A stretch of DNA of 64,000 bases from Klenkia marina (lineage in GTDB: Bacteria > Actinomycetota > Actinomycetes > Mycobacteriales > Geodermatophilaceae), in the NCBI RefSeq assembly GCF_900101025.1, contig NZ_FMUH01000001.1, positions 1 through 64,000 of the forward strand. Reading direction: 5' to 3'. A model generated the notes under the pieces. That model was not told the DNA's origin, did not search any database, and saw only the letters and a program-made list of their open reading frames with translations. A program made the translations under genes and the position numbers. How positions within the stretch are numbered: position 1 is the first letter of the stretch; each line of letters starts with the position of its first letter. Below, one piece after another: positions 11,171-13,096 of the stretch.

Positions 11171-12316
11171 TCAGACGGTGGCGGCTGGCTGGAACTGCGT
11201 GGGGGCGAAGCCGGCGGCCTGCTCCATCTCGCGCACCAGCGGCATCACCTTCGCGCCGAAGGCCTCGATCTCCTCCTGGAAGTGCAGGAAGCCGCAGAGG
11301 AAGAGGTCGACCCCGTGCCGGCGGAACTCGACGATGCGCTCGGCGATCTGCTCGGGCGTGCCGATCAGGTTGGTCTTGAAGCCGTCGTTGTACTGCACGA
11401 GGTCCTCGAAGGAGGAGTCGGCCCACATGCCCTTCTTGTCCCCGGTCGAGCTGCCGGCCTGCGCGACGGCGTCGCGGAACCCCTCGACGGCGGGCTTGTT
11501 CGCCTTGGCCACGATCTCGCGGAGGGTCTCGTGCGCCTCGGCCTCGGTGTCGCGGGCGATGACGAAGCCGTTCAGGCCGAAGCGCACCCGGCGGCCCAGC
11601 GGGTCGGCGACCGCGCGGACGTCGCGGATCTGCTCGTCGATGCCGGCGAGGTCCTTGCCGTTGGAGAAGTACCAGTCGCTGACCCGGCCGGCCATCTGCC
11701 GGGCCGCGGTGGAGTTGCCGCCCTGGAAGATCTCGGGGTGCGGCCGGCCCGGTGAGGACAGCGGCTTGGGCTGCAGGTCGAAGTCGCGGAAGCGGTAGAA
11801 GTCGCCGCCCAGGGTGTAGCCGTCCTCGGTCCAGATGCCGCGCAGGGCGGAGATGAACTCCTCCGAGCGGCGGTAGCGCTCGTCGTGCTCGAGCCACGGC
11901 TCGCCCATGGCGGTGAACTCGCCCTTGAACCAGCCCGAGACGACGTTGACCGCGAACCGCCCGTTGCTGAGGTGGTCGGCGGTGGCCCCGAGCTTGGCCA
12001 GCACACCGGGCTGCCACATGCCGGGGTGGACGGCGGCGATCAGCTTGAGCCGCTCGGTGGCCAGCAGCAGCGCGAGGGAGAAGGAGACCGACTCGTGCTG
12101 GTAGGCCGCGCTGTAGCTGGCCATGTAGCGCACCTGCGACAGCGCGTACTCGAAGCCGACCTGCTCCGCGGTCTGGGCGAGCTTCTTGTTGTAGTCGTAG
12201 CCCCAGTCGGTGCGCTGCTCGATGGTCGAGGTGACCAGGCCGCCGCTGACGTTGGGGACCCAGTAGGCGAACTTGGCGGCCTGCAGCTCGTCGTCGGGGG
12301 TGGTGGGTGCGCTCAT
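11171..12316 (-). CDS. sfnG: FMN-dependent dimethylsulfone monooxygenase, SfnG type
   Basis: A 381-residue flavin monooxygenase of the luciferase-like fold. Family features include KFAYWVPNVSGGLVTS near the N-terminus, HPGMWQPG, the FMN-contacting GRFAVNVVSGWFKGE and HPEIFQGGNS. With FMNH2 and oxygen, SfnG converts dimethylsulfone to methanesulfinate, so cells can draw sulfur from organosulfur compounds. That fits the cysteine-containing leader peptide and hairpin upstream. I see no flavin reductase partner nearby, so FMNH2 must come from elsewhere. Confidence 0.88.
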   Translation of the reverse strand: MSAPTTPDDELQAAKFAYWVPNVSGGLVTSTIEQRTDWGYDYNKKLAQTAEQVGFEYALSQVRYMASYSAAYQHESVSFSLALLLATERLKLIAAVHPGMWQPGVLAKLGATADHLSNGRFAVNVVSGWFKGEFTAMGEPWLEHDERYRRSEEFISALRGIWTEDGYTLGGDFYRFRDFDLQPKPLSSPGRPHPEIFQGGNSTAARQMAGRVSDWYFSNGKDLAGIDEQIRDVRAVADPLGRRVRFGLNGFVIARDTEAEAHETLREIVAKANKPAVEGFRDAVAQAGSSTGDKKGMWADSSFEDLVQYNDGFKTNLIGTPEQIAERIVEFRRHGVDLFLCGFLHFQEEIEAFGAKVMPLVREMEQAAGFAPTQFQPAATV

Positions 12317-12358
12317 GGCGGGATGTCCTCAGCAGGTCGGGAGATGGGCGTGCGAGGG

Positions 12359-12377
12359 CCGGCGGGATCGCCGCCGG
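12359..12377 (-). promoter_or_regulatory. Candidate attenuator hairpin in the sfnG leader
   Basis: CCGGCGG at 12359-12365 pairs perfectly with 12371-12377 around a five-base loop. It lies between the leader-peptide stop and the sfnG start, where a transcription or translation attenuator would be expected. No long U-run follows. Confidence 0.5.
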
Positions 12378-12404
12378 GGTGGCGCCTGGGGTGGGAGCGG
12401 TCGC

Positions 12405-12479
12405 TCAGCGCAGACAGGCGGAGGTGCACACCAGGGCGAAGTCCACGACGCGACGACGCGTCAGCTCCTGGGTGCGCAC
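12405..12479 (-). CDS. Putative cysteine-responsive leader peptide of sfnG
   Basis: A 24-residue ORF starting at GTG 12479 and ending 88 bases before sfnG. Its second half reads TRRRVVDFALVCTSACLR and ends directly at the stop. I recall this as the form of actinobacterial putative leader peptides before sulfur genes: a TRR..VD[LF] core with cysteines close to the stop. Slow translation of the two cysteine codons under sulfur limitation would let the ribosome sense cysteine. The peptide was noticed from its motif and position; its regulatory role is inferred. Confidence 0.65.
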   Translation of the reverse strand: MRTQELTRRRVVDFALVCTSACLR

Positions 12480-12511
12480 GCGCCGAGGAAACCACACCGA
12501 CCTGGTGGACT

Positions 12512-13096
12512 TCACCTCGAGGCGGGTCGCGTTCCCCACAACAACGTGTCCAGGGCGGTGCCGGCCTCGACCTCCCGGGTGACCTGCTCGCAGCGGTCGA
12601 CGTCCAGCAGTGCGGCGACCGGGGCCAGCCGGTCGACCGAGTGCAGGATCGCGGTGTCCTGCGGGCCACCCACCCCGTGCACGACGTTGTCCACGTCGTG
12701 GCCCAGCACGAGCAGCCGACCACCGGGCCGCAGCCAGCCCACCGCACGGGTGAGCAGGTCCACGGTCTCGGCCTCGGGCAGGTGCAGGTAGGCCACGAGC
12801 ACGAGGTCCAGGGACGTGTCGGCGGCCCGCCAGGTGGTCGCGTCGGCGACCGCCCACTGCACGTCCCGGCCGTAGGTGGTCGCCCGCCCGCGGTCGAGGC
12901 CGACGGCGGAGAAGTCGACCGCGGTGACCCGCCAGCCCCGGGCGGCCAACCAGAGCGCGTGCCGCCCCTCCCCCGCGGCCAGGTCGACGGCGTCGCCGGG
13001 CGGCAGGTCGGCGCACAGCTGCGCCACCAGGGGGTTCGGGGTGGCCGACCACTGCTGCTTCTCGGCGTAGCGGGCGTCCCAGTCGGTGGCGTGCAC
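12512..13096 (-). CDS. Class I SAM-dependent methyltransferase
   Basis: A 194-residue methyltransferase. The N-terminus WDARYAEKQQWSATPNP is typical of TehB/UbiE-like small-molecule methyltransferases, followed by the SAM loop VDLAAGEGRHALWLA and the acidic strand VTAVDFS. The post-core region DLVLVAYLHLP fits the same group. The substrate is unknown. I use GTG 13096, with an AGGT nine bases upstream. It lies upstream of sfnG on the same strand, separated by the leader-peptide region. Confidence 0.82.
   Translation of the reverse strand: MHATDWDARYAEKQQWSATPNPLVAQLCADLPPGDAVDLAAGEGRHALWLAARGWRVTAVDFSAVGLDRGRATTYGRDVQWAVADATTWRAADTSLDLVLVAYLHLPEAETVDLLTRAVGWLRPGGRLLVLGHDVDNVVHGVGGPQDTAILHSVDRLAPVAALLDVDRCEQVTREVEAGTALDTLLWGTRPASR

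Follow-up and report, generated by a model that had tools for sequence, protein, structure and literature searches.

A short ORF upstream of the dimethylsulfone monooxygenase gene sfnG of Klenkia marina is likely to encode a leader peptide that acts in cis, of the type known from the actinobacterial Cys-leader attenuators, and that would turn sfnG on when cysteine becomes short. It is situated in a stretch of 64,000 nt (NZ_FMUH01000001.1, positions 1 to 64,000) that was analysed as a whole and is called the window in the following. The ORF, VRTQELTRRRVVDFALVCTSACLR, comprises 24 codons, starts with GTG, ends with TGA and occupies positions 12405..12479 of the minus strand. In the direction of transcription it follows a methyltransferase-domain gene (stop codon at 12512-12514) and is separated by an 88-nt spacer (12317..12404, minus strand) from sfnG (11171..12316, minus strand). 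The downstream gene can be named with confidence, as the 381-aa product scored 630 bits on TIGR04021 (cut-off 383). Its Shine-Dalgarno sequence is GAGGA (12326..12330, minus strand), which is present in eight of the nine close orthologues and replaced by AGGAG in locus L012. The ORF also agrees with the first-pass annotation, which had described 24 residues with late Cys codons before sfnG: according to the sequence, the first Cys codon (12426..12428, minus strand) is residue 18, five positions after the core Asp (Asp+5), and the second (12414..12416, minus strand) is residue 22 (Asp+9), the position at which the family has a constant Cys. Sequence comparison has established the basis of our reading, namely a conserved peptide, a constant Cys position and the company of sulfur genes. 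Together with an NCBI leader family that accepts the sfnG leader of Streptomyces, these features carry the cysteine-sensing part of the earlier annotation, whereas its hairpin part had to be given up.

The reading frame of the leader is open far upstream of the GTG (215 aa), and the start was therefore assigned by conservation. A GTG is found at the same place in all nine close orthologues (own included), and in L009 the frame upstream of it is broken. When seven leaders of equal length were compared pairwise, codons 5-22 showed 75 synonymous and 46 non-synonymous differences, where random changes would be synonymous in 28%, and codons 2-24 showed 81 synonymous versus 115 non-synonymous differences; the synonymous bias is hence a feature of the core only, and so is the constraint that it indicates. 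A chance frame that is not translated and merely sits within a conserved 5' region would be compatible with the frame being open upstream as well, but it is very improbable in view of the synonymous bias in the core, the constant GTG, the constant spacing from Asp to Cys and the far weaker conservation of the spacer. Directly adjoining the GTG is a conserved block, ACCAGGTCGGTGTGGTTTCCTCGGCGC (12480..12506, minus strand), which is presumed to be the promoter; no match to the sigma-70 consensus was found upstream of the leader GTG, and an Rfam scan of the leader region gave no match. Inside the block, an inverted repeat CACC-N5-GGTG (window 12495-12507) was noticed, by eye also in several Klenkia, and might be a possible operator.

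The sfnG leaders of this family share an RRxVD core (LTRRRxVDF core) and, exactly nine residues downstream of its Asp, a Cys. At E <= 1e-4, a first profile made from 17 leaders, the one of the window included, found matches in 98 of the 118 genomes scanned from the class, K. marina among them, compared with none of 118 for the reversed peptides, an empty answer that carries no positive control of its own. In the K. marina genome it marked eight clear places at E <= 2.1e-6, seven of which are rows of the profile, and the next place followed at 0.2. The second profile, A6, was made from 27 leaders, none of them from an sfnG locus. Its E value for the window ORF was 0.019 per genome, which is weak when taken alone, and for the orthologues of this ORF 1.3e-8 (K. 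terrae), 6.8e-8 (L008), 8.1e-4 (Goekera) and 0.1 (L009). Among the NCBI models, NF042934 (cis_reg_atten, 'putative leader peptide') resembles the window leader in the RRxVD core, the Cys at Asp+9 and the occurrence as short ORF before sulfur genes; related NCBIfam models are NF042933 and NF042936, which cover the Cys-rich leader peptides Ms5788A and Ms4527A. The Streptomyces sfnG leader passes NF042934 with 29.9 bits (cut-off 27). In contrast, hmmscan gave no match of the window ORF to NF042934, nor is it among the 12 own-genome matches at E <= 10. The leaders of L012, L014 and L010 did not match the NCBI leader models either, and those of L007 and L008 reached 16.8-23.5 bits, which is below both cut-offs (for K. 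terrae, L007, 17.4 bits on NF042934 and 23.5 on NF042933 with its cut-off of 45). Weak matches to NF042934 below the cut-off also occurred in 10 of 14 control genomes, so that low scores call for caution; two weakly matching ORFs from Streptomyces plasmids are annotated as 'putative leader peptide', and one of them scored 30.4 bits. Compared with NF042934, the window leader has ALVC where most members have xRVS or similar, an additional Cys at Asp+5 and sfnG as target. Since the profiles detect homology in the core while NF042934 itself misses the window ORF, the leader is, judged by its sequence, a divergent relative of the actinobacterial Cys-leader attenuators but does not formally belong to the NCBI model.

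The genes following these leaders point largely to sulfur metabolism. In K. marina, leaders precede genes for DUF4395, a cysteine dioxygenase with a rhodanese frame, TauE/SafE, MetN, an FAD-NAD(P)-binding protein and an SDF symporter, and a further leader, which was not part of the 17-leader profile, precedes a gene assigned to the nitrite/sulfite reductase family by best matches that stay under the cut-offs of the models. For the class genomes, a script chose one gene in the 420 nt that follow each leader, which need not be the adjacent ORF (L129 has a small ORF in between), and L154, one of the 29 loci, was dropped before the Pfam count because its leader was mis-registered. The sulfur-related part of the genes after the remaining 28 leaders comprised DUF4395 (12), rhodanese (5), FMN reductase (3, the one that was scored being an SsuE equivalog) and SfnG (1); single cases were a nitrite/sulfite reductase, a sulfate SBP, an SsuA-family SBP, an SBP of family 5 and a weak match to methanethiol oxidase, and response-regulator C-terminal domain genes occurred twice. 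A leader peptide acting in trans as small protein could account for the conserved basic core, yet there are several different leaders per genome, mostly directly upstream of sulfur genes, which makes such a role highly unlikely.

The presence of the leader before sfnG was followed among relatives as well as in a wider sample. At E <= 1e-100, sfnG was found in 18 of 97 genomes (own included), and the upstream regions of all 18 were read. Ten of them contain the leader, i.e. K. marina, seven other Klenkia, the next genus Goekera, and L021, a genome of another family with the divergent leader VLVSRRAVDLMRFCSDRCC; the locus L007 from the same genus coincides with a stretch of K. terrae NZ_UEXK01000004.1. 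In the ninth Klenkia genome (L015) the leader is missing, and a block resembling the ACCAGGTCGGTGTGGTTTCCTCGGCGC region directly abuts the ATG of sfnG. In L022, a SAM-IV riboswitch (RF00634, 114.7 bits, L022:1309-1425) is located directly upstream of sfnG and no leader peptide was seen. Nor was a leader seen upstream of sfnG in the remaining six genomes. In one of these six, L023, a SAM riboswitch was observed at a distance of about 900 nt upstream, also on the sfnG strand.

The wider sample consisted of the best 80 of 594 sfnG loci from named genomes, with genera taken from the record titles and with L034 and L035 repeating L007 and L012. A fixed leader rule, which requires a Cys within the last 14 residues, together with inspection by eye assigned a leader to 33 of these 80 loci (32 by rule, L053 by eye); the rule itself gave none in 78 control stretches and one in 80 antisense stretches. 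Within these best 80 of 594, a leader precedes sfnG in all 27 Streptomyces loci sampled and furthermore in Klenkia, Goekera, Pseudonocardia, two other Pseudonocardiales and one of 14 Nocardia. The 47 loci of this sample without leader include all 16 from Mycobacterium/Mycolicibacterium, all eight from Rhodococcus/Rhodococcoides and four from Gordonia, and riboswitches reaching the Rfam threshold were found in none of the 80. A comparison of sfnG upstream regions, as proposed in the first-pass annotation, has recovered the peptide in eight of nine Klenkia, in Goekera and in every sampled Streptomyces, but not in L015 nor in 47 of the best 80 of 594 loci. Short ORFs with two late Cys occurred in 12 of the 48 loci for which the rule gave no leader, compared with five of 48 in the control stretch; L053 is a true leader missed by the rule, and the remainder of this comparison is uninformative.

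The transcript start, translation, pausing and induction that we infer for the sfnG leader might be connected as follows. A transcript starting at or near the leader GTG would be translated immediately. As long as Cys-tRNA is plentiful, the ribosome would pass the Cys codons at Asp+5 and Asp+9, terminate and leave, and sfnG expression would stay low. When cysteine is short, it would pause while its A site holds a Cys codon, mainly the one at Asp+9, three codons before the stop, and the occupancy of the leader by the paused ribosome would permit sfnG expression and hence the scavenging of sulfone sulfur. Regarding the way in which this occupancy is read out in Klenkia, we give control at the ribosome binding site (RBS) nearly an even chance, and a read-out other than RBS control or Rho-type termination appears rather unlikely.

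The first-pass annotation had also put weight on a perfect 7-bp hairpin before sfnG. This hairpin exists (CCGGCGG-CGATC-CCGCCGG, 12359..12377 on the minus strand, with a 5-nt loop); it has a folding energy of -13.8 kcal/mol, and three of 200 shuffles fold as well. A role as switch could, however, not be maintained, because it has no U-run and is missing in four of the nine orthologues (L007, L008, L010 and L011; it is present in L001, L013 and L014). A classical attenuator with this hairpin as intrinsic terminator would profit from such a stable structure after the leader and from one compensatory G-C/C-G change relative to L013 and L014, which was read from the alignment. On the other hand, the absence of a U-run, the lack of any terminator-like site in the searched region between leader and sfnG, and the loss of the segment in the four orthologues argue strongly against it, and the hairpin was rejected as terminator; we regard this explanation as hardly credible. 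RNAalifold returned no strong consensus fold in either set, Klenkia/Goekera or Streptomyces; in Klenkia, it paired GGAGC (codons 4-5) with GCUCC after the stop, a pairing that is missing in L013 and L014.

Another way of reading out leader translation would be Rho-dependent transcription attenuation, in which the C-rich and G-poor spacer serves as Rho loading site and translation of the leader decides on loading. The first 73 nt of the spacer consist of 56% C and 25% G, and its C minus G value of 0.32 is the highest of the 28 upstream spacers in the window (mean 0.06, sd 0.11, sfnG included); the spacers of five other leaders of the same genome range from 0.15 to 0.44. PMC1262725 has also put forward an involvement of Rho for the cys leaders of mycobacteria, though as a weak prediction. 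The argument is one of composition, however, and the 28 spacers come from script gene calls covering 51% of the window. Moreover, pausing near the stop would leave all but the beginning of the spacer uncovered by the ribosome, and the direction of the Rho effect is therefore not obvious. Taken together, we consider Rho-dependent attenuation possible but somewhat less probable than control at the RBS.

The idea of RBS control is best illustrated by Streptomyces, where in many members a ten-base complementarity exists between the leader codons TCC TGT TGC and the RBS GCAACAGGAG, giving the pairing CUCCUGUUGC/GCAACAGGAG. The Cys codons of the Streptomyces sfnG leader could accordingly base-pair with the RBS, which would be freed by a ribosome standing on them. 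The folding set of 28 comprised the 27 Streptomyces loci and L104 (L053, L071 and L103 were left out). In this set, RBS accessibility was 0.00-0.03 in 16 of the 28 when the RNA was free; it rose to 0.07-0.52 when a ribosome was positioned at the Cys codons and was at most 0.08 when it was positioned at codon 3. Complementarity between Cys codons and RBS exceeded the shuffles in 14 of the 28 (better than 95% of shuffles, uncorrected and among loci of close relationship), and leader and RBS of Streptomyces show few compensatory changes. In the folding calculations a ribosome on the leader stop codon opens the Streptomyces RBS about as well as one on the Cys codons, so the model needs a fast release after termination. 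In Klenkia/Goekera, masking of the RBS by the Cys codons was not seen: none of nine loci showed pairing beyond shuffles, and the mean accessibility was 0.27 in the free and 0.29 in the stalled state. Unmasking of the RBS is hence predicted for the sfnG leaders of Streptomyces and not for those of Klenkia. For the other leaders of the K. marina genome, pairing with the RBS exceeded the shuffles in two of five. In the class set, after eight of the 28 loci with far gene starts had been left out of the pairing count, five of 20 testable leaders paired beyond shuffles and eight of 20 gained accessibility, in several cases via the stop-codon region UCCUGA. In four leaders of DUF4395 genes (L131, L132, L136 and L152), there is complementarity between UCCUGA around the leader stop and the downstream RBS (CAGGAG plus flanks).

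The position Asp+9 bears on the question of what the leader senses. It is Cys in all ten sfnG leaders of relatives and in all 31 from named genomes (best 80 of 594 loci; L034 and L035 left out). The same is true for all 71 leaders outside the SDF-symporter group (41 sfnG, 23 of the 29 class leaders and seven own), a count that is partly built in, since the search profile favours Cys there for the class and own leaders. The Cys at Asp+5 is shared by the six other 24-residue leaders of Klenkia/Goekera, and L007 and L008 have a Cys at Asp+2 instead. To search for SDF-symporter leaders, 57 genomes from the family of K. marina were scanned with a profile whose last position is Asp+8, and one spurious place (L168) was dropped; that the same symporter lies downstream was judged from shared sequence, the own one having been scored (PF00375). 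Among the 24 leaders found, Asp+9 is Cys in 13 and a stop codon in 11, and nothing else occurs. The Cys-less ones comprise all seven found in Klenkia (L122, L174-L179) as well as L185, L191, L194 and L195 from three other genera; among the Klenkia genomes, G001 and the incomplete G008 yielded no SDF leader. One of the 11 stops is TAG and the rest are TGA; selenocysteine at this position was rejected, because by eye the frame beyond the stop is not conserved. The loss of the Cys codon in several genera with an otherwise retained leader suggests that the peptide core may work without it, and with such Cys-less relatives the Cys codons may not be the whole sensor.

These findings might be explained by nascent-chain arrest, in which the ribosome, with the LTRRRxVDF core inside its exit tunnel, would tend to pause whenever the Asp+9 codon is handled slowly. 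Cysteine hunger would then be one trigger and slow termination another, and the peptide sequence, not only the Cys codon, would be the sensor. The exclusive Cys outside the SDF group, the Cys-or-stop pattern within it and the constraint on the core at the amino-acid level are in line with this explanation. The profile that favoured Cys at Asp+9 for class and own leaders weakens the first of these points. The second is weakened by the fact that in many Cys-bearing SDF leaders the Cys is the last codon, so that loss of this single codon would put a stop at Asp+9 and give the same picture without any rule. We therefore regard arrest as doubtful. It appears slightly more doubtful that the entire family represents a register-fixed arrest peptide and not a plain codon counter, in which case the SDF leaders with a stop at Asp+9 would sense a signal other than Cys-tRNA, for example the termination rate. 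The Cys-or-stop pattern offers a direct way to ask whether the codon or the nascent peptide is sensed.

We return to the cysteine-leader reading, under which the window leader is a genuine candidate for an attenuator of sfnG and the kind of switch is already known. In 2020, Canestrari et al. reportedly described polycysteine leaderless short ORFs in mycobacteria, with Cys codons near the stop of a 5'-terminal ORF controlling sulfur genes. The window leader resembles these in the late Cys codons and in being a short ORF ahead of a sulfur gene. A leaderless start and a cysteine response are putative for the window leader, and a further difference lies in RBS unmasking, which is predicted in Streptomyces but not in Klenkia. 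For the published record, the searches covered leaders combined with dimethylsulfone monooxygenase, core peptide strings and sulfur leaders of Streptomyces and actinobacteria, and the element is undescribed among the matches listed. Cys leader peptides were predicted for cys operons already in 2005; they share with the window leader the Cys codons near the stop, the lack of a conserved terminator hairpin and a possible involvement of Rho, but they consist of Cys runs before cys/cbs genes instead of two separated Cys before sfnG (PMC1262725). For M. smegmatis, translation attenuation of cysteine genes is stated with reference to Canestrari et al. (PMC13236596), and among the eight leader peptides listed for S. 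lividans in the excerpted text none is assigned to cysteine (PMC8079986). The SAM-IV riboswitch of L022 probably also places sfnG under the control of sulfur status; as an RNA aptamer, however, it is an alternative to the leader peptide and not a relative. If the switch works as inferred, Cys-leader attenuation would extend to the scavenging of organosulfur in the form of dimethylsulfone, and sfnG would be under differing sulfur-sensing 5' elements across actinobacteria, i.e. a leader peptide, in one case a SAM-IV riboswitch (L022) or, as far as found, no such element. The Streptomyces arrangement, with Ser-Cys codons that themselves are complementary to the Shine-Dalgarno sequence, would be simple to test.

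Finally, some arrangements of leaders within the family deserve mention. At L027:1501-2659, a Cys leader is located before a cysteine dioxygenase gene that is followed by the rhodanese frame, and such a cysteine-degrading gene is unexpected in a cysteine-shortage regulon. A weaker leader place of the own genome, L124, faces what we take for a probable acetyltransferase gene. Together with L117/L028 it forms a pair at G000:C8:132085-132499, in which the two leaders of the family, separated by less than 300 bases, point away from each other towards divergent genes, and similar close leader pairs on opposite strands are listed in other Klenkia.
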